This document shows, piece after piece, positions 20,796-46,454 of a DNA stretch of 64,000 bases. Made by a program: the position numbers and the translations under genes. Position 1 is the stretch's first letter. Each line of letters begins with the position of its first letter. This DNA comes from Rugalucina vietnamica. Its lineage: Eukaryota > Mollusca > Bivalvia > Lucinida > Lucinidae. The stretch is from assembly GCA_964017185.1 (NCBI GenBank), contig OZ024883.1:44446395-44510394 (forward strand), in the 5' to 3' direction. The notes below the pieces were generated by a model. The model saw nothing but the letters and a program-made list of their open reading frames with translations. It made no database searches and was not told where the DNA came from.

Positions 20796-22832
20796 AAGTA
20801 GCCCAAGGGCAACGATTGCTCACCTGAGAGTCAACAAGTACAGTCATTGGACAAAGGAATTGGGGCTTTTACCATATATGGGTATGGTGGCCATCTTGGT
20901 CATGTGACCTTGAAACCCTACTTACATCAGCAGAAGAGCTCTTGTCTGGATTGTGTATCCTCTTTTCTGCCATTTTGGTTCACTTGAAAAAATCATCTGA
21001 CAAGGTCAGGGTCTTATAGTGACCCCCCGGGGTGGGGCCATATTTGACCCCAGGGGCAAGATTGGCAGGATTTATGTAGAGCTCCACATGACAATGTTGT
21101 ATATCAAATATACAAGCTTTGTGTCATGCTGTTGCAGAGAAGATTTTTATATACATTTGTATTTCAATTATAAGTCTATGGTAGATAATGACATGCCTGG
21201 GGTGTGGCCTGTATGGACCCCAGGGGCACCGTTGGCAGCATTTATAAAGAAGAGCATTATACATTGGTCCACACAACATAGAAAAAAGCTCTGGGCCATA
21301 TGGTTTCGGAGAAGATTTTTTAAAGTTTTTCCCATGACGCCCGTATGGGACCCCAGGGGCACGGTTTGCAGGATTTATAAAGAGGACCAGTAAACATAGC
21401 TACACACAAAATATGAAAGCTTTGGGTCTTGTGGTTTCGGAGAAGAAGATTTTTTTACGTTTTTCCCATTGTAAGTCTATGGGAGCTAATGATCCCTGGG
21501 GCGGGGCCCGTATGGACCCCAGGGGCACGGTTGGCAGGATTTATAAAGAGGACCACTATACATTGCTACTGACAAAATATGAAAGCTCTGGGCCTTTTGG
21601 TTTCGGAGAAGATTTTTTTACGTTTTTCCCATTGTAAGTCTATGGGAGCTAATGATCCCTGGGGCGGGGCCCGGGGCCCGTATGGACCCCAGGGGCACGG
21701 TTGGCAGGATTTATAAAGAGGACCACTATACATTGCTACAAACAAAATATGAAAGCTCTCTGCCTCTTGGTTTAGGAGAAGAAGATTTTTTATGTTTTGC
21801 CCATGACCCCCCCCCCACCCGGGGCAGGGCCCATATGGACCCCAGGGGCATGGTTTGCAGGATTTATAAAGAGGACAACTTTACATAGCTACTCACAAAA
21901 AATGAAAGCTTTTGGTCTTGTGGTTTCGGAGAAGATGATTTTTTTAAGTTTTTCTCATGACCAGCACCCCCCCCTGGGGCGGGGCCCATATGGACCCCAG
22001 GGGCACGGTTTGCAGGATTTATAAAGAGGACCACTATACATAGCTACACACAAAATATGAAAGCTTTGGGTCTTGTGGTTTCGGAGAAGAAGATTTTTTT
22101 AAGTTTTTCCCATGACGCCCCCGAGGCGGGGCCCATATGGACCCCAGGGGCATGGTTGGCAGGATTTATAAAGAGGACCACTATACATTGCTACTGACAA
22201 AATATGAAAGCTCTGGGCCTTTTGGTTTCGGAGAAGAAGATTTTTTTACGTTTTTCCCATTGTAAGTCTATGGGAGCTAATGATCCCTGGGGCGGGGCCC
22301 GTATGGACCCCAGGGGCACGGTTGGCAGGATTTATAAAGAGGACCTCTATACATTGCTACAAACAAAATATGAAAGCTCTCCGCCTCTTGGTTTCGGAGA
22401 AGAAGATTTTTAATGTTTTGCCCATGACACCCCCCCCCCCCCCACCTGAGCAGGGCCCATATGGACCCCAAGGGCATGGTTTGCAGGATTTACTAGAAAA
22501 AGTGCCTTGAGAGGCACGTATACCCCCGGCTGGTTACAGCTCCCTCCAACGCCCCCACCCCTCAGCCCACCGCCCCCAATCCAGACATGCTCACTGACAG
22601 TGACACATTAAACCTCAATTCCTGATGAAAGAGAGCGCCCTCAACAAGTAAATCTTATAAATTTGTATTTGCAAAAAACACTGTCTAAAACCATGGAGGG
22701 TGTAGTAGAATGACAGATCTATTTTAGAGCAGTATACAGAGCTGACTTGTATATTTAATCTAGGACTTGATCGCGGACATTGAGGGTCAGGTCCTCGGTC
22801 CTAGATGTAAAGTAGAATGTCATTCTTCAATA

Positions 22833-22835
<3 letters not shown>

Positions 22836-22863
<28 letters not shown>
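22836..22863 (+). repeat. Poly(A) tract
   Basis: A run of about 25 A inside the nested element, just upstream of its first TCCTAGATTTTGACC module. Confidence 0.85.
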
Positions 22864-23580
22864 TAAGATGTCCTAGATTTTGACCTCTAGCCCCACCCTC
22901 AGGGCATGGACCCTAGAGTCTAATGTCATTAGGAACAAGGCAAACCTTATAGAGTACCTTCGGTGCAAGTACGAATCATTTCTAAACATGGTGGTAAAGA
23001 AAAGTAAAGAAATACATTTTTTTTAAAGAAGTTCTAGATTTTGACCACTAGCCCCACCCCCCGCACATGGACCCTAGTGTCTGAACCTTACATGGTACCT
23101 ATGGTCTAAGTATGAATGCTTTCTGATAAAACTGTGTGGATGTCAAGAAAACAGACTTACAGAAAATTTATCATGATATTTATAATATTATAAATAAGTC
23201 CTAGATTTTGACCTCTAGCCCCACCCCCTGGAGATGGTACCGAGCATGGAGTATGAAAGCAAACCCTATAGGGTATCTATGAACTAAATAAGAATACATC
23301 CCTATGATTGTTTATTAAGATATGGACTTCTAGAAGAAACATTAAAATTGTAAACAGCATATTTTAAAGGTGACCTAGATTTTGACCTCCAGCCCTACCC
23401 CCGGGCACGGGCCCTGGGGTCCGAACTCATGGAAACAAAGCAAACCCTATAGGGTACCTATGGTCCAAATATGAATATGGTTTCTGACCATCAGTTCATG
23501 AGATATACACCTCTAGAGAAACTTTAACCAAAACTTTGACGTAAATTCCACGAACGTTCCGGAATTACGAACGAAGAAAC

Positions 23581-23581
23581 G

Positions 23582-23624
<43 letters not shown>

Positions 23625-23625
23625 A
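23581..23625 (+). repeat. (AACT)n microsatellite
   Basis: Eleven CTAA/AACT units near the right end of the nested element, in the position where related elements carry (GTCC)n. Confidence 0.95.
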
Positions 23626-24726
23626 TACGAACGGACGCACGGAAAAGCGAAAGCTATATACCCGTCGGCATAAATGCCGGGGGGTATAATAAAGAGGACC
23701 ACTATACATAGCTACACACAAAAAATGAAAGCTTTTGGTCTTGTGGTTTCGGAGAAGATGATTTTTTGAAGTTTTTCCCATGACCAGCCTCACCCCCCTG
23801 GGGCGGGGCCCATATGGACCCCAGGGGCACAGTTTGCAGGATTTATAAAGAGGACCACTATACATAGCTACACACAAAATATGAAAGCTTTGGGTCTTGT
23901 GGTTTCGGAGAAGAAGATTTTTTTAAGTTTTTCCCATGACGCCCCCGAGGCGGGGCCTGTATGGACCCCAGGGGCACGGTTGGCAGGATTTATTACTGAC
24001 AAAATATGAAAGCTCTGGGCCTTGTGGTTTCGGAGAAGAAGATTTTTTTTATGTTTTTCCCATTGTAAGTCTATGGGAGCTAATGACCCCTGGGGCGGGC
24101 CATTTTTGGCCCCAGGGGCACGGTTGGCAGGATTTATAAAGAGGACCACTATACATTGCTACTGACAAAATATGAAAGCTCTGGGCCTTGTGGTTTCGGA
24201 GAAGAAGATTTTTTTACGTTTTTCCCATTGTAAGTCTATGGGAGCTATCTGTTGCCATGGAAACCAGAGTTCTGATCCAACCTGGCCCAAAACCTAACAC
24301 AACCTTTCCTCCTCCTCAATGATGCTTTAGGTAAAATTTGATCAGGATTGGCCTTGTTGTCTTGGAGATATTCAAGTTTGAAATTGTGGACGGACGCCGG
24401 CTCGACTACTATACTATAAGCTCACCTTGTGAGCCTTCGGCTCAGGTGAACTAAAAAAATATCAAGCATTTTATGCTGAACACTTTCGTTTTTACAGATG
24501 AAAATATTCTTGTTATAACATGATTGTGTTTTTTTACTGATGTAACTTATTTATGGGCATCTTACTACAGATACTTCAGATAGTGATGATGATAAATGGG
24601 TGGTCACCTTTTGAGAAAAAGCTGCTCACTTGGCTTACTGTATGCTGTTTTTGTGTCAGTACTTATTTCATTGGTTCTGATTTAATTTTGGTAGTTTCCA
24701 TCATTGTTTTTTATTATTGGCCTTTG

Positions 24727-24984
24727 TTTTTTTTGTTTTGTTTTTTTATTCAGTTTTACATCCCTTTCAAGCTTTTTCACTCATATCGAGACAAATCAAT
24801 CGGTAGGTGGGGCGAAAACCGGTGTACCCGGGGAAAAACCACCTGACACACCCGCAAGCAGAACATGGCTTGTCTCACATATGAATTCGTGCCCCGTGCG
24901 AGGCGCGAACCCACATCAGTGAGATGATCGAATGATCAAGAGCACTGAAGTCAGCGACCTTAACCACTCGGCCACGGGGGCCGC
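24727..24984 (-). repeat. tRNA-derived SINE (family S1), copy 3, with probable TSD
   Basis: Minus strand: GGCGGCCCCCGTGGCCGAGT-GGTTAAGG is a clear A-box region and GTGGGTTCGCGCC (24902-24914) a B-box, followed by GTGAGACAAGCCATGTTCTGC-TTGCGGGTGTGTCAGGTGG and a tail with AAAGGGATGTAAAACTGAA. CCTTTG flanks both ends (24721-24726, 24985-24990), a likely short duplication. This is the best preserved S1 copy. Confidence 0.8.
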
Positions 24985-25129
24985 CCTTTGGTTTTGTTTG
25001 CCTTAATAATCATTCCTGATCATTACTTACACTTTACCTGATGCTTAGCAAAATTTGATTTAACTGGAACTGTCAGAAAATCTGACTTTAGCCTGCTTCA
25101 GCCTTTATGAAGCCGTAAAAAGACATAGG

Positions 25130-26170
25130 ATCGAACAAATCAGTCAAGGGCAATATCATGAAAAACTAGATCTTATCAATGTTGATGTGGGTTCTGTCAA
25201 TCCATTATAAAGATAAAGAGCAGAAACTAAATTCTGACAGCAATCAAGGGCCATAACTCCAAAACAAATTTGCCAAAAATGATGGCTTATTATCCAACCA
25301 ATCTTCTCATTGTTAATAGGTGAACAAAATGTTTCAAATCTGTCAATAAGTCTCCCCGTACATCATCCATAGAGTAGATTATATTTTCGTTTTGGTCCTT
25401 TGAGATCCGCGAGGGTGTTCTTAGATTTCAAAAATTTATTATCGGTTTACCGAAACTGTGGTATGGCCCATCCATTTTCTCCTAATATGCTCACTGCTCT
25501 TAAAGGATCTCTTTTATTTTCATTCTAAGATATTGAGCAGAAACAAAATTTTGACATAAATCAAGGGCCTCAAATCTGTTACAAACTGGCAATGAATTAC
25601 CCTAACAATCTCAAGGTAGATCTTATCAATGTTGTGTGTACAAATTTTGGTTCAATTCTGTCATTTAATTCTCAAGATATTGAGCTGAAACTAAATTCTG
25701 GCGTCAATCAAGGGTCATAACTATTGTACAATTTTGAAAAAAAAAAAAATCCTGTGTAACAATGCCAAGCTATATCTTTTCAGTCAATGTTGATGTTTGA
25801 ACAAACTTTTGTTCACTTCTGTTGATTCATTCTCAAAATATGGAGCAGAAATAAAATTCTGTTGTCAATTAAGGACCATAACACTGGTACCAAATGAAAA
25901 ATTGTGCCAAAAATCTCAAGCCAGATCTTGACAATGTTGATGTGCATGCAAAACTTGGTTCAATGATGTCAATTCATTCTCAAGCTATTGAGTGGAAACC
26001 GTATTCCAGCACCAAAAAGGACCACAAGGGCAATAACTCTTCCATAAACTTTAGGGAAAATGAAATAACATTGCCATAAAACTATATATGTATCTTGTAA
26101 ATGTTGTGTATGCTTGTAAAGTTTGTAAAATTCTGTCCATTGGTTCGAGAGATATTGATGGTAATGTATC
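25130..26170 (+). repeat. ~155-bp tandem array (AATCAAGGGCCATAACTC type)
   Basis: About six degenerate units with AATCAAGGGCCATAACTC, AGATCTTATCAATGTTGATG, TTGGTTCAATTCTGTCAATTC and CAAGATATTGAGCAGAAAC. It resembles the module inside 28788-29806, but no hairpin terminus was found at either end here. Small frames over it are not supported as genes. Confidence 0.7.
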
Positions 26171-26430
26171 CATGGAATGATGGAACAGCAAAACCACGGA
26201 AGGGCAGGGTGAATCCAGTAAAACCTCACTTTTTCAAAGTGGTGCTCTTTATATTCTATTCTATTCTTTACTTGAAATACTGAATACAACATCAGTGATA
26301 TCATACATTGCAAAGCATACATGACATACAAAATACAACAAAACATAATATACTACATGCAGTAACTGCAAGCACATATTGAATTATGTCAACCCTCATA
26401 AAGTTGTGACTGTAAATCTCAATAAAGTAA

Positions 26431-27170
26431 TTATGAATCTCTTATTTCCAGGGCCTTCAACAGATATTTACTTAGCATCGTTGCCTGGGCCCTATTTCTT
26501 GGGTTAAGTATTAGCTTCAATGTATCATTATCTTTACATAACTTTAATTTATCAATATCAAATTCTTTTAGTAATCTATCCCTAAATGTATCATAAGTTT
26601 TACAAAATAAAATAAAGTGTGATTCACTTTCTACTTCATTGCAAAATTTGCATATTCTTTCTTCCCTTGGGATTTTGGGTCTAGAATACCTGCCTCTTTC
26701 AATATTTAGTTTGTGAGAACTCAGTCAGAATTTAGTGATTATAGAGGTACAGGTTTGCTTAAGATTCAATTTTAAATAGTCTGGGACATTATCATTAAAG
26801 ATAAAAACAGTGGAATATAATTTAAGTTTACTGTCATCATGTAGTCTTAAATTGTTCAAATTATCCTTTGTTTTTTGCATATAAAATTTAGTCAACAATT
26901 TATCAACTGTTTCAGAGTCTAAGAAATTAAAGTTTTCTTTAATACCAGCAGATCTTAATGTTTTTTTTCTAGGCAAGAATACCAAGATTTGCATCCATTG
27001 ATATGTAAGTCTTGATCAGTTTGAAATGCTTTTGATAGTAATCTATTGGTAGGTAAAGTCCTTAGTCTTTCATAATATTTAAACATTTATACATTTTGTT
27101 ATGAGTAAAAGAAACATTGCTGAGAACCAAACACGCATCTGACATTAAATTCTGGTACAATCAAAATAAG
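26431..27170 (-). pseudogene. Decayed non-LTR retrotransposon ORF2 C-terminus (family R1)
   Basis: On the minus strand the C-terminal part of a LINE-type ORF2 protein can be followed from about 27170 to a stop at 26431-26433. Near its end is a zinc-knuckle-like motif, CKFCNEVE..HFILFC, which is common after the reverse transcriptase domain in L1/Tx1-like and some RTE-like proteins. Upstream lie LPTNRLLSKAF and GCKSWYSC, then GIKENFNFLDSETVDKLL. Damage includes an in-frame TGA at 26725-26727 where arginine (CGA) is expected before LSSHKLNIE, a frameshift at an A8 run (about 26961-26968), and another near 27085. No RT catalytic region remains. Clade assignment is uncertain. Confidence 0.75.
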
Positions 27171-28369: not shown

Positions 28370-28846
28370 TTAAACCCAAAGCAGTAGTTTAAGATTAACC
28401 ATAGGTAATGATCTATAAATTGGTTTAAACTTATAGAGAGGTTGTGTCAAAGACCAATTTTTGGGACTGTGACTCCCAGACTTCCACAAATGCCAGCACT
28501 GAGAGACATTAATAACCTTTGTCAGTTGACCAACATAATTTGTGTTAAAGGTATTGAGGGTGCATAACAATCTTGGACTATGTCTGTGGAAAGGTACAAG
28601 TAGGCAAATATCAGGAAAAGGTGCAATCAGAAAAAGATTCCCACTCCAAAAACCGAGGTGGGAAAAAACCAAACCAACAAGCAGGTACTGAAACCAAGAA
28701 AACATTTCATAAGCCAAATGAGCAGCTATTTTCCCAATAGGTGGCCACTCAGTTACCTTAACTAATAAAAGCGCTGCAGGTATGCATGATACCCCGCCAC
28801 GCAAATTTGATTTAGTACAAATGCACAGCATTAATCTACAATACAA
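28370..28846 (-). other. 158-codon minus frame of unknown, probably repeat-derived origin
   Basis: An open frame with VTEWPPIGKIAAH, SHLGFWSGNLFLIAPFPD and VPFHRHSPRLL. It is rich in aromatic and hydrophobic residues and no domain can be named. I have the impression of meeting similar short proteins in predicted gene sets of marine invertebrates, as expected of an interspersed element, but cannot verify this. Its first ~20 codons lie in the inserted element at 28788-29806, so the native frame starts further upstream (near 28786) or was split by that insertion. The frame at 30245-30553 on the same strand may be the other part of the same element. Confidence 0.4.
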
Positions 28847-29806
28847 ACCACATCTTCCAAATATGAACTCCTTAACAAAGTTTGAAGCAAATTGGTCTAC
28901 AGATGCTCAAGACAGCGCCTAAAAACAATATTGTAACATAAATCAAGGGCCATTACTCTGTATTTATTTGACGAAAATTACCAATCTTCAATCCCAAAAC
29001 ACTCCTTCCTGATATAAACTCCTATACAAAATTTGAAAAAAAAATGGTCAATAAATGCTCCAGATAGAGCCCCAAAACAAAATTTTAACGTAAATCAAGG
29101 GCCATAACTCTGTACTTATTTGACAAAATTTTCCCATCTTCAATCCCAAACCACTCCTTCCTAATATGAACTCCTATGCAAGGTTTGAAGAAAATTGGTC
29201 TATAATTGCCCAAGATATAGGCCGAAAACAAAATTTTAATATAAGTCAAGGGTCATAACTCTGTACTTATTCAACAAAATTTACCCATCTTCAATCCCTA
29301 ACCACTCCTTCCTAATATTAGCTCCTATACAAAGTTTGAAGAAAATTGGTCAATAAGTGCTGAAGATAGAGCCCAGAAACGAAATTTTAACGTAAATCAA
29401 GGGCCATAACTCTGTACTTATTTGACGAAATTTACCCATCTACAATCCCAAACCACTCCTTCTTAATATAAACTCCTATACAAAGTTTGAACAAAATTGG
29501 TCAATAAATGCTCAAGATAGAGCACGGAAACAAAATTTTAAAGTAAATCAAGGGCCATAACTCTGTACTTATTTGACGAAATTTGCCCATCTTCAATCCC
29601 AAACCACTCCTTCCTGATATAAACTCCTATACAAAGTTTGAAGAAAATTGGTCAATAATTGCTCAAGTCAGAACACGGAAACGAAGCGCTGACGGACGGA
29701 CAGACGGACGGACGGACAGACAGACGGACGGACGGACACTCGAACGCAAATTTTTTGCGGAGGGTATAACATAATACCCCGCACTTTTTGAAGTGGCGGG
29801 GTATAA
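28788..29806 (-). mobile_element. TATACCCC-type hairpin element with ~151-bp modules
   Basis: Left end ATACCCCGCCACGC; right end GCACTTTTTGAAGTGGCGGG-GTATA preceded by GGAGGGTATAACATAATACC and (GGAC)n tracts (29692-29738). GATACCCCGCCAC and GTGGCGGGGTAT are inverted repeats with TA at the junctions. The body has five units marked by AATCAAGGGCCATAACTCTG (28940, 29095, 29246, 29397, 29548; spacing 151-155). It interrupts the sequence carrying the 158-codon frame. Non-autonomous or of unknown mechanism. Confidence 0.75.
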
Positions 29807-32520: not shown

Positions 32521-33215
32521 TACATAACAAGAGGACCAATGGTCCTGTAAATGCTCACCTGAGAACTGGGATATGCAACCTAAGCTGACCTTGCCATAAA
32601 ATAGGTCAAGGTCATCCAAGGGTTATGATATACAAACTTTGTAGAGCTGTATTCATTGATGCTTCAAGCCAAGTTTCAAAATCAAAGGCCTTCTGGTTCT
32701 GAAGAAGATTTTTAAAGTTTCTTTGCTGTTCATAGTGATGGCGGCCATCTTGGTCATGTGACCTTGACCATTTATATAAACTTTCATTCTCCCTTCCTAA
32801 GAATACTCAACAAGACCTTTGGCTTTGATTGGCCAAGCAGTTTAAGAGAAAAAGATCTTTCTTATGGTAACATACATGTATATTGCCCCGGGGTGGGGGC
32901 AGACCTGCCCCTGGGGTCCTTTTTTTTTCAGAATCATAAATATTCAGTCCATTAGCCCATTTCAATAAAGTTTTTCCTGTAAAATGACATTTTGACAATT
33001 TTCTCCATTCAAATGCATGGACGACCTATGTTGACCTTGCCGTAAAATAGGTCAAGGTCATCCCAGGGTCATGATTTATATGAACTTTGTAGAGCTCTCC
33101 AGAGCTCCTCACTCTGATGCTTCATGCCAAGTTTCAAAATCATAGGCCTTCTGGTTCTGGGGAAGAAGATTTTTGAAGGTTTTTGCTATTTATAGCCATG
33201 GTGGCCATTTTGGTC

Positions 33216-34114
33216 TGAATCTGAATCTGAATAGTTTACTGGTGACACGCCAAATGACATTATTTCACCAGGGGGTTCGGATGGGGGAGAAATTAGTCCC
33301 TTGAACGCACGAGAGAAGCGAACTTGGACACACAATCATCTGACATTTCAGCAGTAGAAAACAGAGAGTCAGGGAGGTCATTCCAGTCCCTGATAGTCTG
33401 GGGAAAGAAACTACATTTATAGGCCTCTATACTAGCAGATGGAAGCTGAAATGCCTTGGAGTGACTATTTCTACAACGCCTAGTCTTTGGGATAAGGTCA
33501 TCTGTAGGTATTCTGGCTTTATCCTTCAGACCTTTGTATAGTAATATAAGTCGATTATCCGTCCTCCTTTTCTTGAGAGATTCCCATTTGAGTTGTTCAA
33601 GAATGCCAGTCATACTACCTTCCTCGAAAGTATAATTCCTAGTTACAAATCTAGCGGCACGATTCTGTACCTTCTCCAATTCCTCCTGGAGGCATTTAGT
33701 ATGAGGATCCCAAACAGAACTTCCATATTCCAGGACTGGGCGCACCAGACCTTTATAAGCTGCTTCTTTAACATCTTGGGGGCAAGAAAATAAGTTTCTC
33801 CTCAAGAATCCAAGTGTTCTGTTGGCTTTAGTACAGATATTATTGATAAGGGTATTCCACTTGAGGTCATTTGTAATTGTTACACCTAGATATTTAATGC
33901 TATCAACATTTTCCAATACCGTTCCCTGGAGGGTGTACGAGGCTTCAATTTTATTTATCCGCTTATTTGTCAGCTGCATCATGTTGCATTTGACAGGTTG
34001 AAATCTCATGCCCCATTTTCGGGCCCAGCTCCCTAAAAGGTCAATGTCTTTCTGAAGTTTCAATGTATCTTCTACTGTTCTAATTTCACGGTAACAAACA
34101 CAGTCATCAGTTTA
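33216..34114 (-). mobile_element. 5'-truncated non-LTR retrotransposon with TSD
   Basis: Inserted in element D with TTGGTC duplicated at 33210-33215 and 34115-34120. In the element's own orientation the 3' end is a short (ATTCAG)n tail (CTATTCAGATTCAGATTCA on the minus strand), with no poly(A). The 5' truncation falls exactly at the reverse-transcriptase catalytic motif. Simple-repeat tails and truncation are typical of CR1/L2/jockey-like target-primed insertion. Confidence 0.9.
33293..34111 (-). pseudogene. Reverse transcriptase C-terminal fragment (non-LTR, CR1/jockey-like)
   Basis: The open minus frame begins, directly after a junction stop, with TDDCVCYREI: the two aspartates of the RT palm motif C (normally F/Y-A-D-D) are the first residues kept. 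The thumb and C-terminal region follow with DLLGSWARKWGMRFQPVKCN, IKYLGVTITNDLKW, RPVLEYGSSVWDPH, VQNRAARFV, RRTDNRLILLYKGL and IRDWNDLP, and a TAA stop at 33293-33295. About 270 codons are intact without frameshift, so the insertion is fairly young. Missing are the endonuclease domain and the fingers and most of the palm, so it cannot encode an active enzyme. No start codon is needed, and the TTG at 34061-34063 is just an internal leucine. Confidence 0.92.
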
Positions 34115-34786
34115 TTGGTCATGTGACCTTAACTTTTTATATTAACTTTCATTCCCCCATCCTAAGGATACTACATAAAAAATTGGCTATGATTGGTTGA
34201 GCAGTTGCTGAGAAAATTAAGTTTAACATTTAATTTGTAAATGACCTTTGGTCAAGGTCAAGAAATGACCTTGACCTTTAATACTCACATCACTTCAATA
34301 GCTCAACATGTTGTCTGTATCTACAAACTTTCAGGCCACTGGCTACAAAACTTCCTGAAACTTTCAATGTTTTCACATTTTTTCATTGAAAAGCCTTTGT
34401 AACCAAAATTGACCTTGCCGTAAAATAGGTCAAAGTCAACCCAAGGTCATGATTTATATAAACTATGATGGGCCAGAGTCCCCAATGCTACATACCAAGT
34501 TTCATTGAAATTGGTCCACCGGTTCCAGAGAAGAAGATTTTTTTATGGTTTTTACCATATATGGGCATGGCGGCCATCTTGGTGATGTGACCTGGATCAT
34601 TTATATAAACTTTTGTTCCCCCTTCCTAAGGATGCTCCACAGCATTTTGACTTTGATTGGCCCAGTGGTTTCAGAGGAGATCTTTGAAATTGTGGACGGA
34701 CGACGACGATAGACGACGGATGGATGCCGGAGCATGGCCATCCTATAAGCGCACCTTGTGAGCCTTCGGCTCAGGTGAGCTAAAAA

Positions 34787-36040
34787 TATGGCTAAAATGG
34801 AACATTGTTTTCTGCGAAAAACCAAGTTTTTAATTATGATATTTGAGGAGGCTCCAAACAAATTTCCATGGGTAACTAAACCAGCAATTTTTAACATTTA
34901 CTCTGCCTTCTCCCCAATCAAAATCAGGTGACTGACACAGAAAAGGGTGGCGAATTTCTGTACGTTACCAAAGATATGGGCCTCTAAAAGGAGATCAAAA
35001 CAATATTTCTTTGCAATATTATTAATCCTTTAATCACTTGTTAGCACCCCACTTCCTTTGACAACTCCTACCCTGTTCCCCTAGGATGTTTCCCACTTAA
35101 TTTGTATGCAACTCCATTTGACCTTGCCATAAAGTATGTCGAAATCATCCCAAGATCTTATCTTAATAAGGCTGGAGTCCAAAATGCTATGTAAAGTTCA
35201 AGAACATGTGACTTAATGATCTTGAGATGATCACAATGAAATCACTCTGTACCCTTTTTTCACATTTAAAGGCAAGTGTGAATTTAGTCTAGGTAATCCA
35301 AAGGTCATCATTTATATACTCCTTAGCTACATTCCCTGATGCTACATGCAAAATATCAAGAACATAGTACTTTGGCTTTTTGAGAAAAATATTTTAACAA
35401 GGCTCCAAACTCAGCAGGGATACAATTTTGACAACAGGGACAAGCTAGGCCTCTAAAAAATGAAAATCAAGAAGGCAGCCAAATACTCAATGGCTCCACT
35501 TATAATCAAGCTATATTTTGTTGATTTGTTGAGGCCCTTGAGTGTTAGAAGCTGAGAGACCTTGTCATTTAAGGTTTAAGGGCCTGTCACACACAAGTGT
35601 GGACTCCAACATGCTACGAGTAAGTGCAAGTTATAACTTGCCCCATGTCTCCACTAATTGCCATGAGTTAAAGAATCTTGTTAAAAAGTACCCTACAATT
35701 TGCATGAGACATGCCTATGAATTTGACGGCAAAATATCAGTAGATTACTGCGAATTCATAAAAATTATAACAACACTTGTATAAGTTCTGCAATATGAGT
35801 ACGAGATGGGCACAACATTTCTGCCAATTTTCTACAAGTTGTTGCATGTATGTAAGAGTTCTGCATGACAATTCATCAGTCACTACAAGTTAACTACAAT
35901 ATACTGTGACATGTATACCAGATAAGTATGACAGCGTAACGGTCATCCTTGACTTAACATGATACCAAACAACTTCAATGCATTTTAGAATAAATAAAAG
36001 TGCTTTTGGTGTACACATGTATGTGCATTATCATATTTAT
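34787..36040. other. Unassigned degenerate repeat region
   Basis: Scattered module-like text (TGACCTTGCCATAAAGTATG, AAGGTCATCATTTATATACTC) suggests old AGCTCACC-family copies to about 35400. At 35577 TTAAGGGCCTGTCACACACAA resembles the left end of the GTCACAC-type elements, but no matching right end was found. The 80-codon frame at 35542-35784 is not supported. Confidence 0.45.
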
Positions 36041-36715
36041 TTCTAAGTCTGTGACCTTGACCTCAAGGTCACTTAAGTGGGTACAGATGGAACAGCATAA
36101 AATTTCTGACCACTATCTGGCAACAGGCATAGTATCAACAAGATCAATCCACATGTTCACGAGATACAGACTTCTCAAAACTTAAACATAAAATCTGAAG
36201 TCCGTGACCTTGACCTCAAGGTCACTGAGGTAGGTTGGGATGGTACAGCATAAAATTTCAAACCAACAACAGGCATAGTATCAACTAGATCCATCCGAAA
36301 GATTTCTAAAAACTTTAACCAAAAATGTTGACATAAAATTTCTAAGTCCATGACCTTGAGCTCAAGGTCACTGAGGTGAGTCAGGATGGTACAGCACAAA
36401 TCTTCAGACCAATGATTATAATAACAGGCATAGTATGAACTAGATCCATCTACAAGTTCAAAAGATATAGACTTCTAAAAACGTTAATCAGAAACTTAAA
36501 CATAAAATTTCTAAGTCTGTGACCTGGGTCAGGATGGTACAGCATAAAACTTAAGACCAATATCTAACAACAGGCAAAGTATCAACTTAATCCATCCACA
36601 TGTTCAAGAGATATAGACTTCTAAAAACTTCAACCAAAAACTTTAAAATTTGATGCAGACGTCGACAAGACTGCAATAGCTCTTCCTGTACTTTCGTACA
36701 GGCGAGCTAAAAAGG
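36040..36715 (+). mobile_element. Module element E1 (GACCTTGACCTCAAGGTC modules), left end lost
   Basis: About four ~150-bp units marked by TGACCTTGACCTCAAGGTCA at 36054 and 36207; the 36351-36370 version TGACCTTGAGCTCAAGGTCA is a perfect 20-bp palindrome. The units share GGATGGTACAGCATAAAA and AAGTTCAAAAGATATAGAC. It ends with GACTGCAATAGCTCTTCCTG-TACTTTCGTACAGGCGAGCTAAAAA, a hairpin (CCTGTAC/GTACAGG) just before GAGCTAAAAA. The GAGCTGTCGC start is absent. Confidence 0.7.
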
Positions 36716-38040: not shown

Positions 38041-39005
38041 AGAGCTGTCGCAGGACAGCGTAGCTCGCCTGACTTGTGCTTTGCCCCAAAATCTATCAAA
38101 ATCTATGACCCATGACTTTGACCTCAAGGTCACTCAGGTGGGTCGTGATGGTACAGCATAAAACTTAAGACCAATATCTATAAATATGCAAAGTATCAAC
38201 TTGATACAGTACATGTTCAAGAATTATAGACTTATAAGTTTAACCAAAACTTACAAACTTTCCAAGTCTGTGACCTTGACCTCCATGTCATAAAGGTGGG
38301 TAATAAAAACTAATAATGGTACTGCATAAAACTTGATACCAATACCTATCAACCTGCAAATTATAGACTTGATCCATCAACATGTTCAGGAGATATAGAC
38401 TTATAAAACTTTAACCAAAAGCTTAACACAAAATTTCATAGTCTGTGGCCTTGACCTCAATGTCACCCAGGGTGAATCATGATGGTATAGCATAAAACTT
38501 CAGACCAATATCTACCAACATGCAAAGTATCAACTTGATCCATCATTATGTTCAAGAGATACAGACTTAGAAAGATTTAACCAAAAGCTTTACACAAAAT
38601 TTCCAAGTCTGTGGCCTTGACCTCATTGTCACCCAGGGTGAGTCCTGATGGTACTGCATACAACTTCAGACCAACATGCATAGTATCAACTTGATCCATT
38701 AACATGTTCAAGAGATAGACTTATATAAACTTAAACCAAAAACTTTAACACAAAATTTCTGAGTCTGTGACCTTGACCTCAAGGTCACCTAGGGTGGGTC
38801 ATGATGGTACTGCATAAAACTTCAGACCGATATCTACCAGCATTCAGAGTATCAACTTGATCCATCATCATGTTCAAGAGATATAGACTTATAAAAACTT
38901 AAACCAAAAACTTTAACATTTGAGCAACGCGGACGCGAACGAGAATGCCGATGCCAGGGTGACTGCAATAGCTCTTCCTGTACTTTCGTACAGGCGAGCT
39001 AAAAA
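38041..39005 (+). mobile_element. Module element E2, both termini present
   Basis: Left end AGAGCTGTCGCAGGACAGCG-TAGCTCG is a hairpin (GCTGTC/GACAGC). The body has five units of 156-174 bp with TGACCTTGACCTCAAGGTCA (best at 38768-38787) and CATGATGGTACTGCATAAAAC, then a GCGGACGCGAACGAG tract. The right end is GACTGCAATAGCTCTTCCTG-TACTTTCGTACAGGCGAGCTAAAAA. It interrupts the 118-bp array at an A-run, with AATATAAA on the left and AAAAATGGGACTCC on the right. No protein is encoded. Confidence 0.8.
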
Positions 39006-40369: not shown

Positions 40370-40480
40370 TAATTATTCACTCTTTCTTTTATCACAACAA
40401 AGGAAAATGGCTGATCAGATCTGCCCCTATGTTTTCACACTTGCAAATTGTCGGTTTCTCATGCAATAGCATGAGAAATG
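40370..40480 (+). repeat. Hairpin MITE family H, copy 7 (3' half, degenerate)
   Basis: CACAACAAAGGAAAATGGCTG-ATCAGATCTGCCCC, then TTTTCACACTTGCAAATTGTC-GGTTTCTCATGC. The 5' half is missing. A partial unit of the 118-bp repeat (ATGGGACTGCAGTTTGTATA) follows. Confidence 0.6.
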
Positions 40481-41042
40481 GGACTGCAGTTTGTATAATT
40501 CATGTTTGTTTGCATGTATGTTCCAAGGAAAGTTTTATGTTCATTTTAAGCCTACATTATATATCTGAGGCCCAACCTACAGGTATTTTGAGGAGGAAGA
40601 TAAGTTGTGAATTTTAATCACCCTATTAAGCGCAAAGAATGCAGTATTATACCATTACTTATACACTGTATACACCATAGTTATAATCATTTTCATGGTA
40701 GATATCCAAATTTGGTTTGAAACTGACAAAATGCAAGAGTTTGCTTTGCTAAGTGTTATCCATCCAAACCTTACAATTTTGAGTTCCGATGGGTATCCAT
40801 CTTGGAATAGACTGCTAAGTGCAAGCCTGCCGCATAACGTTAACCAGTTTAAGTCTATATTCTTATCCATGAACGAGTGGCGCACTTGCATCAGAGAACA
40901 GCCATAGTTTAGAAACATTTTCATGACAAAAAATCCATGAAAATAATGTTCAGAAAGTGAGATGAGATTGTACATAGCTTGCAAAAGGTTGTTGCGAGTT
41001 GCAAGCATCTTCAACTTCAAATCAATGTTACATTTTTATCTA

Positions 41043-42073
41043 CGTAGGTTGTTCGGAAAGTTCGTGTAATTGTGCCATATCTCTCATAATTTTCATCCAT
41101 TGCACCGGAAAGTTGTTGTGCGTGAACTTCCACTTATTCTTAACTGTTGATAGGAAAAAGAAAGAAAAGTGACCATAGAAACCGAAAATACAGGTTGTCG
41201 TGGCAACGTCATCATCAGTACCCGGAGCAGTCCGAAAAATATCACTTTTTTAAACAAAGTCTTAAAGAAATCAACTTAATTTCTGACTGTTTGCTCATTG
41301 CTAGAAAAGCACGTAATCGTCTTGTAATATTTCAACGACATAGCATTGTTTCCTGAAAATTTAAAGTCAATTGGATGTTCCACAAAGAAGTTATGGTCCT
41401 TTATTGCGAGGGTTGTATGGGGGAACCATGACTTCGAACTGTGTCGTTGCGTTGCAAAAGATTATTAACTTCTGTATTTGCTTCATAAACACACACACAG
41501 AAACACTTTTAAAGTTAAATTAGATGGTAAAATAAACTGGAAAACTATGAACAATAGTTCAACATTTATGTACAAATTGTTCGCATGTTTTAAGAGTGGA
41601 ATAAAAGAAACTGGCGGCAATTTTAGAAGCAACCATCCGGCAGTGGAATTGTGTTCCATTCAGAATTGCGAAAAATTGGATGATTCAGCGGAGAATATTA
41701 GAAAAATAGACTCAGGGAGCTGTATCACCACATACTGATACTGGTTACGAAAACTTATAACAAAAGAATGGACAGACACATTAAATGCGTAGATATGGTT
41801 GGTGTTTATGCTGAGAAAGTGTGATCATCGCCAACTGGATTAAAATAAAATTTGACGTTTTCGCAACGTCATTTTGACGTTGGCGTGCTCCGGGTACCCA
41901 TACCTCACCTTTTTGTAATGAACATATTTTTATTATGTCTTTGTGAATCATCTTGGTTTTCACAGCATTTATAGAGGACATGTTGAAGTTAAATTAGGTA
42001 TGTTTCTTTTTGTATTACTATGAATATTAATTGAATGATCAAACAATTTTTCGAACTTTCCGAACGCCCCTCG
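41043..42073. mobile_element. Mariner-like non-autonomous element (TA target)
   Basis: TA at 41041-41042 and 42074-42075. Left end CGTAGGTTGTTCGGAAAGTT-CGTG; right end reads, inverted, CGAGGGGCGTTCGGAAAGTT-CG. GGAAAGTTCG-type TIRs next to TA fit the Tc1/mariner superfamily. A second inner inverted pair (GGCAACGTCATCATCAGTACC near 41200 and GGGTACCCATA preceded by AACGTCATTTTGACGTTGG near 41870) gives a fold-back. No D,D(D/E) transposase was found in the ~1 kb interior; frames at 41147-41356 and 41478-41738 show no recognised motif. Confidence 0.7.
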
Positions 42074-42446
42074 TATAACAAAAACTTACTTGGAAAGATA
42101 TCTTAACATTCTTTAATTGTCTGCTCAACTCTTTCCTTCTTTTGTTCATCAGTCCTGAAGCAAGAAAAACATCATGATAAAATTAACAGTAAACTAATTT
42201 GTTTTGAAAGTGCAAGTGATTTATTTTCACGAGAAGAATTGACGAAAATAAATCACCATAAAAATCCTATTTTGACATACTGCACATTATTGATCATTAT
42301 TCTTACATACGGTACACGAAAATGATTCCCAACAAAAATATTAATCGCGACAAAATTGAAAATAGTTTGGTTAACCCTGAGTATTATTATAATTTTTAAT
42401 ATGATTGTTAATACCATGCTAAATTTCCTTGCTTAATTTGTTATCT

Positions 42447-42670
42447 GAGCTGCCGCATAAGAAAACCAACAAAATGTATAGGCAAAAACAAAGGCGCAGA
42501 TAAGTTGTGCAGTCACTGCACAGCCGATCAATGCCTTTGTTTTGGCTACACTATCCCTCTCCTACTTAAATCTAAAATTTCAAGCTTCTAGCCCACTTCT
42601 GTGACTGTACAGCCTGGTTTGTGTGGGATCTGTTTAAAAACCACATCGGTTTTCTAAGGGCACGGCTCAT
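42447..42670 (-). repeat. Hairpin MITE family H, copy 8
   Basis: Reverse orientation and nearly full length: GAGCTGCCGCATAAGAAAACC, hairpin CAAAAACAAAGGCGCAGATA...GATCAATGCCTTTGTTTTGG (42483-42544), then ATTTCAAGCTTCTAGCCCAC, ACAGCCTGGTTTGTGTGGGA, TCGGTTTTCTAAGGGCACGG-CTCATTTC. Confidence 0.8.
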
Positions 42671-43528
42671 TTCATTTCTAGGAGCTTTTACTTGTTAGAA
42701 ATCCCTAAACATTTTAGATATTTCCAGACTTAAAGTATTCAAAGAGAACACAATATTCAACAAGAACACCTTTAAACCAAAAGCTCTAATCACAGCAAGC
42801 ATTTTGGTACAAATTCCAGAAATAAGCCACTTATATAAATTATGTTTCAATATTAATTATGCATTTGTAATTAGAGCTGCATGACGTCATAAAGCCTCAT
42901 GAATATCCAAGATGGCTGCCTAAAAACATTAATAGAAGAATATTCAAATCAACAAAACTTTCTTAAATTTCATCTAATTTTGATCAAACTTTGTATCATA
43001 CTTTCATGGAGACATGTACATAAATTTAAGATGCATTTTACTTCAACCTTGCCTTTCCCTTCAAACTTAAGAACAATATCAAAGAGAAAGAAATGTGTTA
43101 CCTTGGGGGATCTGTATCATGGAATAAAACATCTGAAATACAGTATGATTACTTTGATTCAGATTTTGGAAGATACTGTTAATAAATTTGTTTTCACAAG
43201 TTATTCATTTTTCGTGATTTTCTTGAGGAATTGTGATTTTCAAAAGAAAGATGGACTGATAAAAAGTTCCATTTTTATATACTTTACATTTTGTATAGGC
43301 CAGTTCTACAATCAGCAAAATTCGTCATGAGTACCCTTGGAGACAAAATCCCAAAATTTAGTAGCCGCTAAAATAAATTGAGTCCCAGGCAGGCCAAACA
43401 TATGCAGTTAACCAAAACTTAGTGCACATACTTGAACCAGCAAATGACCTAAAGCTGTGGTAGTTACAGAATTTCCTGACTAGCTTCAAAGAAAGAATTT
43501 CTGCCATACTCGGGATCCTAACTGATAA
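42671..43528. other. Unassigned region; 143-codon frame not supported
   Basis: TGCATGACGTCATAAAGCC at 42880-42898 contains a CRE-like TGACGTCA, followed by CCAAGATGGCTGCC. An AT-rich 143-codon plus frame runs 42899-43330 (its first codons are MNIQDGC) with no recognisable domain and a composition expected of AT-rich noncoding DNA. It cannot be called a gene from sequence alone. Confidence 0.35.
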
Positions 43529-43719
43529 ATGAGCTGCAATGCAAGAAACCAAGTCTTCGGGATTTCTGACCAGGTCTGGTACAAACCAGCCTGTACAGTC
43601 ACTGAAGAAAGTTAGAAGCTTGAAATTTTGGATTTAAGGACGGATTTAGCAAAAACAAGGGCACTGACTGAACAGTAACTGCACAGCTGATCTGCACTTT
43701 TGTTTTCGCATCGTCAATA
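43529..43719 (+). repeat. Hairpin MITE family H, copy 9
   Basis: GAGCTGCAATGCAAGAAACC, TTTCTGACCAGGTCTGGTAC-AAACCAG, GAAGCTTGAAATTTTGG and a partial hairpin CAGTAACTGCACAGCTGATC-TGCACTTTTGTTTTCGC. Its right end is replaced by element E3. Confidence 0.75.
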
Positions 43720-43849
43720 AGAGCTGTCGCAGGACAGCGTGCTCGACTGCTTCTGACCTTTGTCAAACATTAGGCCAAACCCGACCGGTAACCCAAAGCA
43801 TTATGCTCATACATCTTTTTGCCTTGATGCCATAAGGCAAAATCACTGA

Positions 43850-45260
43850 ACCATGAAAGTTAACTATAACTACCTAAGATTTAAAGGTCTCACTCATATT
43901 GTGAAAGAAGTGTGTTCACATACCAACTCAGTGCCAAGACACAAGGCAAAATCACTGAACCGTGAAATAAGGTCACACTGACCTATAAGTATTTCAGGGT
44001 CAAAGCCTCAAAGGTCTAGTGATACTTACTCATAATGAGAAAGAAATATGATCATATACCCATTCAGTGTTGAGATATAAAGCAAAATCACTGAACCATG
44101 AAATTAGGTCATAGTGACCTATAAGTATGTTTGGGTTAAAGGTCTGGTCATACTCATTCATAATCAGAAAGAAGTATGAAAAAATACCAACTGAGTGTCG
44201 AGATATAAGGCAAAATCACTGAACCATGAAATTAGGTCACAGTGACCCAGGAATACTTTACGGTCAAAGGTCTTGTCATACTCATACATATCGTGAAAGA
44301 AGTATGTTCATATACCAATTGAGTGCCGAGATATAAAGAAAAATCACTGAACCGTGAAATAAGGTCATATTGACCTAGGACTACTTTAGGGTCAAAGGTC
44401 TTGTCATACGCAAACATAGTGTCAAAGAAGTTTGTTCATAAACTACTTGAGTGCCGAGATATAAGGCAAAGTCACTGAACCGTGAAATTAGGTCATAGTG
44501 ACCTATAAGTATATTGGGGTCAAAGGTCTGGTCATAATCACTCATAATCTGAAAAAAGTTTGAAAATATTCCAATTGAGTGTCAAGATGTAAGGCAAAAT
44601 CACTGAACCGTGAAACTAGGTCACAGTGACCTAAGACTACTTCAGGGTCAAAGGTCTTGTCATACGCAAGCATACTTTGAAAGAAGTTTGTTCATAAACC
44701 ATTTGAGTACCGAGTTATAAGGCAAAATCACTGAACCGTGAAATTAGGTCACAGTGACCTATAAGTATATTGGGGTCAAAGGTCTGGTCATACTCACTCA
44801 TAATCTGAAAAAAGTATGAAAATATACTAATTGAGTGTCAAGATATAAGGCAAAATCACTGAACCGTGAAATTAGGTCACATTGACCTAGGACTAATTCA
44901 GGGTCAAAGGTCTTGTCATACGCAAACATACTTTGAAAGAAGTTTGTTCATAAACCATTTGAGAACCGAGATATAAGGCAAAATCACTGAACCGTGAAAG
45001 TAGGTCACAGTGACCTATAAGTATATTGGGGTCAAAGGTCTGGTCATACTCACTCATAATCTGAAAAAAGTATGAAAATATACTAATTGAGTGTCAAGAT
45101 ATAAGGCAAAATCACTGAACCGTGAAATTAGGTCACAGTGACCTATAAGTATATTGGGGTCAAAGGCCAGGTCGTACTAACTCATAATCTGAAAGAAGTA
45201 AGAAAATATACTAATTGAGTGTCAAGATATAAGGCAAAATCACTGAACCATGGAAAGTAG
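43850..45260 (+). repeat. 128-bp array with oestrogen-response-element-like palindromes
   Basis: Units share GGCAAAATCACTGAACCGTG, AAATTAGGTCACAGTGACCT, GGGTCAAAGGTCTGGTCATAC and ATTGAGTGTCAAGATATAAG. The palindrome AGGTCA-nnn-TGACCT starts at 43970, 44106, 44234, 44362, 44490, 44618, 44746, 44874, 45002 and 45130, exactly 128 bp apart from 44106 on. Nine are perfect in both half-sites; the 44234 copy ends TGACCC. The consensus with spacer CAG equals the classical inverted-repeat-3 oestrogen response element. Whether any receptor binds is unknown. Confidence 0.9.
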
Positions 45261-45378
45261 GTCAACCGACCCTTACCGTCATGACACACAAGTCAGTGTC
45301 ACAAAGTCAAAAGACGAACGACCAACCATCTTCCTAAGTTGTTTCTATTAAGAAATAAAAAGAAAAAAAATTCGGGGA

Positions 45379-46060
45379 GTTCTAGATTTTGACCTCTAGC
45401 CCCGCCCCCCTGACTCCGACCCAGAGGTCCGATGTCATGGAACCTAAAGTGTATGAAGTATGAATGCTTTATGATAAGTTGTTGTCAAGATATGGACTCC
45501 TTGTAAAAGTTACATAGCAGTACATCTATTTTTTACAGTGTTCTAGTTTTTAACCTCCAGCCCCACCCCCCAGGCATGGTCCGAGAGACCCTATGCCATG
45601 AAATGAAACTCAACCCTACAGGGTACCTATGGTCCGAGTATGAAAGCCCTCTGATAAAAAGTTTTCAAGATATAGACTTCTAGAATACTATATCACAGAA
45701 AAGCCATTATTATTAATGGTGTTCTAGATTTTAACCTCTAGCCCCACCCCCTGGCATGGACCCAGGGATCTGATGCCATGGAATGAAAGCCGACCCTACA
45801 GGGTGTCAATGGCCCAAGTATCAATGCTTTCTGATGAGTGGTTGTCAAGATATGGACTTCTAGAAAACTTTAACATAAGAATTGCCATTTTTGAAGGTGT
45901 TCTAGATTTTAACCTCCAGCCCCACCCCCTGGTCTGGACCCAGGGGCCCGATGCCATGGAATGAAAGCTAACCCTACAGGGTATCTATGGTCCAAGTATG
46001 AATGCTTTCTGATGAGTGGTTGTCAAGATATGGACTTCTAGAAAACTTTAACGCAAGTGT
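45379..46060 (+). repeat. ~175-bp module array (TCTAGATTTTGACCTCTAGC)
   Basis: Four units beginning near 45379, 45539, 45720 and 45899 with CCAGCCCCACCCCCTGG, GGACCCAGGGGCCCGATGCC-ATGG, CCCTACAGGGTACCTATGG and TTGTCAAGATATGGACTTCTAG. The same module fills the nested element at 22870-23540, which has different termini. Confidence 0.85.
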
Positions 46061-46061
46061 G

Positions 46062-46126
46062 ACGCGCACGCGCACGGGAACGCGCACGGGAACGCGCACG
46101 GGAACGGGAACGGGAACGGGAACGTG
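46062..46126 (+). repeat. GC-rich (GGGAAC)n / (GCGCAC)n tract
   Basis: GACGCGCACGCGCACGGGAAC then repeats of GCGCACGGGAAC and four GGGAAC units. It occupies the slot between module array and terminal hairpin that holds (GGACGC)-like tracts in E2 and (GGAC)n in 28788-29806. Confidence 0.9.
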
Positions 46127-46454
46127 GACGACCGGGGTGACTGCAATAGCTCTATGCACTTCGTGCAGTCGAGCTAAAAATCCTGTGTAATCATGGTGCG
46201 GCTCAAATTTTTAAATGCTAAGAAAGGTACACTGATTACTATGCTGACAATCACTTTTTTATCTTTGATTCTTACCCTCTAATAATTTTATCAGACCAAC
46301 CAGTCTATGTTCTTGAGTGACTTGTTCTATTTTCATCCCGATGTACCAGTCTAGATATAATGACTCAAGTGTGGTCTTGACAAACATACGAGCAGTCAAC
46401 AATAGATGATGGCACCAGGCAGGAATGTCGTTCACAAATCGAGCTGAAACAAGT

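Follow-up and report, generated by a model that had tools for sequence, protein, structure and literature searches.

The genome of the lucinid bivalve Rugalucina vietnamica carries one tandem module, designated M178, with two unrelated classes of termini, belonging to element families which we call T1 and T2. The presence of the same module with different termini had been proposed from a sequence-only reading of a 64,000-nucleotide stretch of contig OZ024883.1, here called the window, and it is now seen genome-wide. Direct observation covers both families with their ends and target sites, as well as the array that they share and the constancy of its arrangement. The further proposal, that tandem cassettes are exchanged between terminus classes, stands insofar as M178 occurs in T1 and T2, but frequent or recent shuffling is unsupported because module and ends were fixed in two combinations at 22/22 loci. 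The opposite pattern, with each module always linked to a single terminus, was rejected, since M178 occurs in two families, the 3' end RF_GAGCT is found with both M166 and M128 arrays, and one locus, L033, is composite.

One module in two families of elements

The module of about 165–180 bp was present, as first read, in four units both in element E_A (family T2) and in element E3 (family T1), and the termini of E3 and of E_A (CTAG at 22493, TATAA at 23689) lie where they had been placed (Table 1). Cross-identity between the units of the two sites is 0.58–0.755, and Smith-Waterman alignment of the arrays scored 314, where 60 shuffles averaged 22 (z 118). The first array of E3, M128, yielded no significant match to M178, in agreement with the earlier reading that the two are unrelated.

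Table 1. Repeat elements of the window and their parts
Feature	Position	Strand	Remarks
E3 (family T1), Helentron-type HINE, two arrays	43716..46180	-	order same in 14/14 T1 copies; inserted in A run
E3 3' end (RF)	43716..43750	-	subTIR GCAGTCGAGC, palindrome GCTGTCCTGCGACAGC, TCTTATT
M128 array of E3	43843..45264	-	profile count 11 units; AGGTCAnnnTGACCT palindrome present 10 times (<=1 mismatch)
M178 array of E3	45382..46056	-	four units; phase of either edge matches E_A
ACGCGC/ACGGGA microsatellite of E3	46062..46124	-	
E3 5' end (LF)	46139..46180	-	TTTTTAGCTCGACTGC subTIR and hairpin
E_A (family T2), TATACCCC element, non-autonomous rolling-circle-type	22493..23689	-	nested in M155 array
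E_A 3' end	22493..22531	-	subTIR GCCGGGGGTATA, palindrome GTGCCTCTCAAGGCAC, TTTTT, CTAG
M178 array of E_A	22873..23531	-	four units, last truncated beside microsatellite
AACT microsatellite of E_A	23578..23624	-	
E_A 5' end	23657..23689	-	TTATACCCC(C)CGGC subTIR and complementary IR (hairpin)
E_D	38041..39005	-	RF palindrome as E3, array M166, matched but different subTIR pair; nested in 116-bp-period array
M166 element without RF end	36039..36713	-	5' part only
TATACCCCGCC element, M151 (AATCAAGGGCC) array, GACG microsatellite	about 28787..29805	-	putative boundaries
Degenerate M151-type array	25130..26242	-	likely decayed LF hairpin at 26224-26242
TATACCCCCCGC 5' end, GTCC microsatellite, M191 array	18142..19195	+	no 3' end seen by eye
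GCTCACC-type element, M155 array	20802..24459	-	split by E_A; ends by eye
GCTCACC-type element, M454 array	147..1648	+	ends by eye
GCTCACC-type element, M454 array	6351..7789	+	ends by eye

A 20-mer from M178 has 20,071 matches across the 1.09 Gb genome, and its reversed control 2. Sampling among the first matches listed yielded 22 distinct loci, 14 of T1 and 8 of T2 and of no other family, each with four M178 units and none with an M178 array outside these families; the one other case met, L033, carries a single M178 unit and has GAGCT ends as well. The consensus sequences of T1 and T2 match the 20-mer (<=2 mismatches) three and four times, respectively, and a rough closure of 3 x 2,627 T1 junctions plus 4 x 2,964 T2 5' ends gives 19,737, compared with the 20,071 observed. 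For the 100 exact M178 matches listed on contig C1, an exact T1 LF lay downstream on the same strand in 51, an exact T2 LF in 21, both in none and neither in 28. The distance to the T1 LF was 692–778 bp in 48/51 and 907–936 bp, about one extra unit, in the other three, while that to the T2 LF was 579–630 in 18/21, the rest being 252, 1691 and 1848. Unit number varies to some extent, with four units in nine, three in two and two in one of 12 T2 loci drawn by their 5' end. Array identity is high inside the families (0.963 for 15 T1 copies, 0.927 for 9 T2 copies) and about 0.70 between them.

Ends and target sites

The T1 plan consists of the RF GAGCTGTCGC, the M128 array, four M178 units, a microsatellite and the LF GAGCT, with A/T runs as insertion sites. 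T1 comprises a few thousand copies, E3 among them. The RF core 20-mer of E3 has 8,099 matches genome-wide (<=2 mismatches; control 0) and its LF 4,215 (control 0), at a limit of <=3 mismatches which also lets in the sister LF carried by part of the M166 elements. The two arrays lie 141–152 bp apart in all 14 T1 copies (13 genomic and the window copy), and 12 of the 14 have their own RF_GAGCT. An A-rich tract is common to the spacer of E3 and the T2 region left of the array (p 0.004); it is of low complexity and no claim is based on it. The subTIRs at the two ends (GCTCGACTGC/GCAGTCGAGC), the 5' inverted repeat forming a hairpin, and the 3' palindrome GCTGTCCTGCGACAGC near the end were all found, the last wherever an RF was present (12 copies, with one altered base in L023) and with a folding z of only -1.0. 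Insertion agrees with the T-rich or TT pattern of HINEs, without target duplication. Spanning matches to empty sites were obtained for 7 of the 12 T1 copies tested; the junction is an A-rich run in L014, L016, L023, L026 and E3, and L009 and L022 were too gapped for use. The exact insertion base is ambiguous because A runs at the termini had been removed before the flanks were joined.

T2 comprises about 3,000 copies, including the element at 22493-23689, and the 5' end of E_A has 2,964 genome-wide matches (<=3 mismatches; control 0). Its plan combines 5' TT and 3' CTAG ends, the latter preceded by a hairpin and TTTTT, with four M178 units and insertion mostly between A and T. Read 5' to 3', E_A starts at 23689 (TTATACCCC) and finishes at 22493 in CTAG; no reading frame of at least 150 aa is listed within it. 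The T2 consensus was made from 9 copies. The E_A-type 3' end is present in 9/9 of the copies shown, with L024 reading CTTG, and the 5' end folds with a z of -4.4 for the family sequence. At the empty site of E_A, intact M155 units at 21807-21926 and 21967-22081 align to the joined flanks without a gap at the junction.

When T2 is compared with the HINE plan, the subTIRs, the 5' inverted repeat and the 3' palindrome are all present, but insertion at TT or in T runs is not seen (9 copies tested, spanning matches in 3). Two sites show insertion exactly between A and T, those of E_A and of L013 against L010, and the weaker third, L015 (82% identity), is flanked by G and T and shows a gap of one base where the flanks meet. 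The 5' neighbour is A in 6/9, G in 2/9 and T in 1/9, and the 3' neighbour is T in 9/9. Of the canonical Helitron features, a 3' CTRR, a palindrome about 11 bp inside and insertion between A and T occur with exceptions (CTAG in 8/9, palindrome 9 bp inside), and 5' TC is replaced by TTATACC in 9/9. T2 is Helitron2/proto-Helentron-like on the definition drawn from the account in PMC4067079, having asymmetric terminal inverted repeats, palindromes at both ends, 5' TT and 3' CTAG, and insertion between A and T at the two exact sites, with exceptions among copies.

Mixed combinations extend to other elements. Twelve RF_GAGCT loci, which reach only 1.5 kb and stop before the LF of M128 elements, divide equally between M166 (6/12) and M128 (6/12). 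L033 is a third composite: between its GAGCT ends a single M178 unit stands together with M166 and a 146-bp array, in a new arrangement. The subTIR pairs change together, being CTCGACTG/CAGTCGAG in T1 and CTCGCCTG/CAGGCGAG in M166 elements, and mismatched pairs occur in L031 (one base) and for the RF of L011/L035 (one element). Nesting is common: E_A lies in M155, E_D in a 116-bp array, and T1 copies have entered arrays of M166 and of M155.

The sharing of AATCAAGGGCC modules by two other window sites was borne out, 25130-26175 matching 28830-29690 with an own-array profile E of 3.5e-12. The start previously given for the second element, 28788, is probably some 20 bp short, since a reading by eye would place the 3' palindrome further left. 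The array at 25130-26170 had been described as lacking termini, which is only partly right; its appearance is that of a decayed element, not of a free cassette, with a likely decayed LF hairpin of the same type at 26224-26242 (score 21, reached by 4/500 shuffles).

We do not claim that all arrays belong to one deep superfamily of modules, relations being weak or absent outside M155/M454, which own-array profiles relate with a best E of 5e-8 (best decoy 0.7). M178 and M166 are weakly related (profile E 3.8e-4 one way, 0.013–3.7 in other directions; Smith-Waterman z 10.3 and 4.8), as are M178 and M155 (E 4e-3 to 5e-2, decoys 0.4–5.7). A 96-unit M178 profile placed both pieces of M155 and M166E above all shuffles that gave a match, and M166D, M151, M191, M128, M454, M7 and M186 not above shuffles, against a null that is partial because matchless shuffles were not counted. 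Iterated profiles drifted and were left out of this comparison. Pattern scans of viral contigs gave 0 matches.

Origin of the shared cassette

The occurrence of the same four-unit block between unrelated ends suggests that element interiors can pass between transposon lineages. Taken as a whole, the observations are probably best explained by transfer of a cassette between the T1 and T2 lineages, followed by fixed amplification. T1 and T2 are non-coding elements with the anatomy of rolling-circle transposons (Helitron superclass), moved presumably by Rep/helicase proteins encoded elsewhere. An internal cassette, comprising the M178 array and probably the border between array and microsatellite, would have passed long ago between two rolling-circle lineages, likely by recombination or template switching while copying inside repetitive DNA, and each new combination of ends and cassette would afterwards have been amplified as a fixed unit. 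The exchange looks old. We infer the rolling-circle movement, the autonomous partners and the mechanism, number and direction of the exchange events. At least 150 Helitron_like_N domains scored among the matches listed (409 first-look candidates), many within open reading frames longer than 2,000 aa, and none in 14 control genomes. In 10 Helitron_like_N loci of 3.4–3.6 kb, too short to span whole elements, the searched end motifs were absent and no autonomous element with T1 or T2 ends was found.

In the unit-by-unit pairing (E1-A1 etc.) the identity pairing ranks 2 of 24, and a tree of 36 of the 96 units separates the A from the E units by a branch supported at only 55/79, so that what passed may have been either a finished four-unit array or fewer units that then expanded in parallel. 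Grouping of unit A4 with units E3 and E4 is compatible with the tree test but not established by it (AU p 0.275).

Among the alternatives, we give the most weight, though clearly less than an even chance, to the idea that T1 arose when two elements with GAGCT ends, one carrying M128 and the other M178, fused or recombined, T2 sharing the M178 part only. Oyster elements with two consecutive arrays are described in PMC7492417, RF_GAGCT is common to the M166 and M128 families, and the composite L033 lies between GAGCT ends; against this, the inter-array spacer of E3 holds no remnant of the 5' end (LF) of T1, E_D, T2 or E_B (p 0.61–0.95). T1 may have been founded by an ancient fusion.

It is rather unlikely that T1 and T2 each captured the same pre-existing satellite and expanded it separately. 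Capture of satellite units is among the models put forward for oyster HINEs in PMC7492417, identity within the A units equals that between A and E units (0.701 vs 0.699), and the unit tree is compatible with separate A and E clades. Nevertheless, T1 and T2 share the orientation to the ends, the start CTAGATTTTGACC, the truncation point AACTTTAAC beside the microsatellite and the usual unit number, and at the 22 sampled loci M178 arrays were confined to these families; the one further case, L033, is GAGCT-ended too.

Descent from a single ancestral element whose ends diverged beyond recognition is very improbable: the module homology is indeed old, at about 30% divergence, but within each family the ends are near-invariant and the arrays more variable, the end regions of T1 and T2 align only at microsatellite-like GAACGG words, and the target sites differ (mostly between A and T vs A/T runs). 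That E3 as seen today results from one element landing by chance inside another is scarcely credible and was rejected, because the sampled M178 loci fall in stereotyped families; frequent as nesting is in this DNA, M128, a spacer of about 142 bp and four M178 units recur in 14/14 T1 copies (the M128 array being itself interrupted in L019 and L027), and E3 has a matched subTIR pair at its two ends.

Known relatives and implications

In the earlier reading the architecture could not be matched to a named transposon class, but its subTIRs, 5' IR, microsatellite, central array and 3' palindrome fit the published HINE/Helentron plan (PMC7492417, PMC4067079). T1 fits the non-autonomous Helentrons (HINEs) known from oysters. 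As described in PMC7492417, Cg_HINE of Crassostrea gigas shares with the present elements a 5' subTIR with complementary IR, a microsatellite, a 3' subTIR with palindrome, a central satellite-like array of 138–181 bp units and T-rich insertion without target duplication; 2/11 elements have two consecutive arrays, and group 2 has related ends with unrelated arrays. In that account, however, a monomer cluster goes consistently with one flank pair, whereas here one monomer family has two unrelated pairs, and the T2 pair differs in ending with CTAG and inserting mostly between A and T. T2 resembles proto-Helentron-Pi of Phytophthora, given in PMC4067079 as having 5' TT, 3' CTAG and insertion between A and T, but that element is about 14 kb and coding, whereas T2 is about 1.2 kb and also has subTIRs. 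By description rather than sequence, the DINE-1/HINE elements of Drosophila and mites (PMC4067079) and the Pearl elements of bivalves (via PMC7492417, PMC5139131, PMC11136912) share the overall arrangement of ends, a microsatellite and central repeats, and differ from T2 in target site.

The review PMC12628747 reports for C. gigas that a single element can hold different array types and that one type of array can be common to different Helitrons, the latter of which lowers our claim of novelty. The shuffled loci as presented there are complex, truncated or tandemised, in contrast to the intact, fixed, high-copy families found here, and it is the intact, high-copy sharing of one array across two end types that is new. 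No literature was found combining 'ATGAAACTTGG' with bivalves, or an estrogen response element with transposable elements and bivalves.

Whereas in C. gigas a repeat family was reported as tied to one end pair, here it is not, with thousands of marker matches for each of the two intact families T1 and T2, whose target sites differ. The open question of how Helentrons acquire their arrays becomes testable, as the breakpoints, direction and age of the swap might be recovered from related genomes. There is a bearing on the origin of satellites too, because a cassette able to change vehicle can outlast its own transposase. More tentatively, the internal tandem cassette may evolve as a unit in its own right, travelling as a passenger between rolling-circle lineages of different end-recognition and target chemistry, one of Helentron type and the other of the 5'TT/3'CTAG type; we hold this a little less doubtful than before because L033 joins three module types between GAGCT ends. 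If true, ends and cassettes would be two separately inherited halves, the cassette outliving any one transposase.

A module shared by two families of elements

The window, judged from its HINE-type repeats to be eukaryotic and mollusc-like, is crowded with tandem arrays, and one module of about 165-180 bp (M178) occurs in two elements with different termini, E3 and E_A, which represent families T1 and T2, respectively. The two M178 arrays align with a score of 314, against a mean of 22 (sd 2.5) for 60 dinucleotide shuffles, while M128, the module of the first array of E3, gave no match to M178 in the array-to-array comparison. The sequence-only reading was thus right that both elements carry the same module and that the first array of E3 is unrelated to it. 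Single-strand folding backs the 5' hairpins of the E3 and E_A types (z -2.3 and -4.4) and supports the 3' palindromes less clearly (z -1.0 and -2.3).

Elements, arrays and other repeats of the window
Feature	Position	Strand	Description
E3 (T1)	43716-46180	-	5' to 3': TTTTTAGCTCGACTGC 5' end with hairpin, ACGGGA-type microsatellite, M178 array, ~142-bp spacer, M128 array, 3' subTIR GCAGTCGAGC, palindrome GCTGTCCTGCGACAGC, TCTTATT
E_A (T2)	22493-23689	-	5' to 3': 5' end TTATACCCC(C)CGGC with complementary IR, AACT microsatellite, M178 array, stretch of ~320 bp with no long repeat listed, 3' subTIR, palindrome GTGCCTCTCAAGGCAC, TTTTT, CTAG
M178 array, E3	45382-46056		Four units
M178 array, E_A	22873-23531		Four units
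AGGTCAnnnTGACCT region of M128 array, E3	43970-45144		Units carry AGGTCAnnnTGACCT
M166 units	36039-36650; 38080-38925		Some with TGACCTTGACCTCAAGGTCA, an inverted AGGTCA-type half-site pair (by eye)
M186 arrays	11541-13355; 13360-14948		Oppositely oriented, beside 637-bp inverted pair
637-bp inverted pair	13360-13995; 14314-14948		89%
Insertion within M454 element	33215-34115		Encodes weak similarity to reverse transcriptase (PF00078, E 1.5e-4, under the curated cut-off)
~1.2-kb repeat	49285-50489		TACGTA-like words abundant, inverted ends CTGTCACACATTC...GAATGTGTGACAG, splits M454 unit (by eye)
tRNA-like dispersed repeats	48450-48610; 24765-24985; 7799-8013		By eye; no tRNA found by ARAGORN
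Minisatellite	51265-61975		10.7 kb, 41-bp units, higher-order unit 123 bp (41 codons)

Allowing ≤2 mismatches, the M178 20-mer TCTAGATTTTGACCTCTAGC was matched 20,071 times in the 1.09 Gb assembly and the reversed pattern twice. Copies with the exact 20-mer were sampled on a single contig, C1, as twenty 8-kb regions at the first matches more than ~20 kb apart and eight 3-kb loci; six of the latter duplicate places already sampled, so that the 28 rows comprise 22 distinct loci, 14 of T1 and 8 of T2, with L007 and L014 apparently lying within one tandem duplication. Four M178 units are present in all 28 rows. The M128-to-M178 distance is 141-152 bp in 14/14 T1 copies (13 genomic, L007 being left out, and the window copy), and 12 of these have their own 3' end with palindrome (RF), the exceptions being too short (L008) or interrupted (L027). 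M178 is present in all 12 loci that were selected through the T2 5' end (four units in nine, three in two, two in one), and 11 have the T2 3' end; five of them (L042, L044, L045, L046 and L048) are elements of the first sample.

A listing of 100 exact M178 matches on C1 had the exact 5' end (LF) of T1 downstream in 51 cases, of T2 in 21, of both in none and of neither in 28, and the five sampled from the last group (L007, L014, L020, L024 and L027) were each T1 or T2. These matches are not all separate elements, since 14067661 and 14067818, 157 bp apart, share one LF. With three TCTAGATTTTGACCTCTAGC matches per T1 consensus and four per T2 consensus, the genome-wide counts of 2,627 T1 junctions and 2,964 T2 5' ends predict 19,737 matches, near the observed total, a closure that is rough owing to the mismatch limits. 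M178 arrays are estimated at 5,600 copies. At C1:1889678-1892169 (L008, L039, L040) two T1-type elements lie head to tail with ~40 bp between them, and close by, T1 copies at 1878420 and 1884751 apparently form a tandem duplication of 6.3 kb.

Combinations of modules and termini

The 20-mer of the T1-type 3' end (RF_GAGCT) has 8,099 genome matches (control 0). Twelve loci extending 1.5 kb from RF carried M128 in six cases and M166 in six, and they are not independent because L037 and its neighbour L038 are almost identical, and L039 lies next to L040. The subTIR beside the shared palindrome varies with the module and is paired at the opposite end (CTCGACTG with CAGTCGAG, CTCGCCTG with CAGGCGAG), the pair being mismatched in L031 and in the L011/L035 element.

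A third arrangement, again between GAGCT ends, occurs in L033: RF_GAGCT is followed by M166 (three units), a 146-bp repeat (about five units), a single M178 unit and the LF core GACAACAATAGCTC, where the sequence examined stops short of the LF subTIR. Its M178 unit is diverged (E 6.6e-26), has the same orientation and adjoins a microsatellite; the 146-bp repeat had no match among the window module profiles used. Taken together with T1 and T2, these loci imply that a single end is combined with several sets of modules and a single module with two ends. L033 suggests that modules have also recombined among GAGCT-ended elements.

Classification and origin of the shared array

For T2, spanning matches to empty sites were found for 3/9 copies. 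The joined flanks fit empty sites for E_A, in further units of M155, and for L013, where L010 supplied the site; in both the junction is gapless, at A|T, and nothing is duplicated. A weaker match (82%), that of L015, has a one-base junction gap and reads G|T. The base flanking the 5' end is A in six of the nine copies, G in two and T in one, and the base flanking the 3' end is always T. For T1, with spanning matches for 7/12 copies, insertion was in A-rich runs in L014, L016, L023, L026 and E3, L009 and L022 being too gapped for use; terminal A runs were trimmed before the flanks were joined, so that the run is placed and the exact insertion base is ambiguous.

The ends, absent duplication and target preference of T1 and T2 are consistent with rolling-circle elements. 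T1 agrees with a non-autonomous Helentron (HINE) in the features that could be tested; T2 does not show the HINE feature of T-run insertion. Its 5' TT, 3' CTAG and A|T target, along with asymmetric inverted repeats, match it to the description of proto-Helentron-Pi (PMC4067079). The sequence-only reading could match the architecture to no named class, a view superseded by these assignments. Helitron_like_N matched at least 150 places among 409 candidates, many within open frames over 2,000 aa, and autonomous Helitrons are therefore probably present in the genome.

Mean identity of the M178 arrays is 0.963 within T1 and 0.927 within T2, and about 0.70 between them; L015, L020, L021 and L027 are among the diverged copies. 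When 36 of the 96 units were placed in a tree, every unit position was set apart by a branch (starred support 7/8; E4 83/82), which argues that the arrays spread as intact cassettes. T2 units are no closer among themselves than to T1 units (0.701 vs 0.699); the tree did not recover the sequence of duplication and family split, and the pairing comparison did not bear out a unit-by-unit pairing of T1 with T2. T1 and T2 carry one and the same cassette, alike in orientation and phase, and this is best explained by an old exchange of internal sequence, the main rival being independent capture of M178 by each family. Under such an exchange, the segment would have passed long ago between two rolling-circle lineages, and T1 and T2 would then have amplified separately.

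Elements of the same plan are described for C. gigas in PMC7492417, among them elements with two arrays and elements whose ends are related although their arrays are not; a monomer cluster is reported there to be consistently tied to one flank pair. A 2025 review reports the same array type across different Helitron elements of that species (PMC12628747). New here is the clean, high-copy sharing of an array across two end types.

Other repeats and hormone-response-like sites

The M186 arrays with their inverted pair are perhaps a foldback element, and the ~1.2-kb repeat resembles a foldback or TIR element; the tRNA-like repeats are probably SINEs. Long minus-strand reading frames cross the minisatellite because its higher-order unit equals 41 codons; these are frames only, any gene there being putative.

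The M128 units of E3 and of T1 loci L008-L026 carry AGGTCAnnnTGACCT, which matches the estrogen-response-element consensus. The window holds 10 such sites at ≤1 mismatch, nine of them perfect, compared with 0 in 20 shuffles, and T1 copies hold 6-11 perfect sites in the sequence examined, the interrupted L027 having only one. T1 may spread many estrogen-response-element-like sites.
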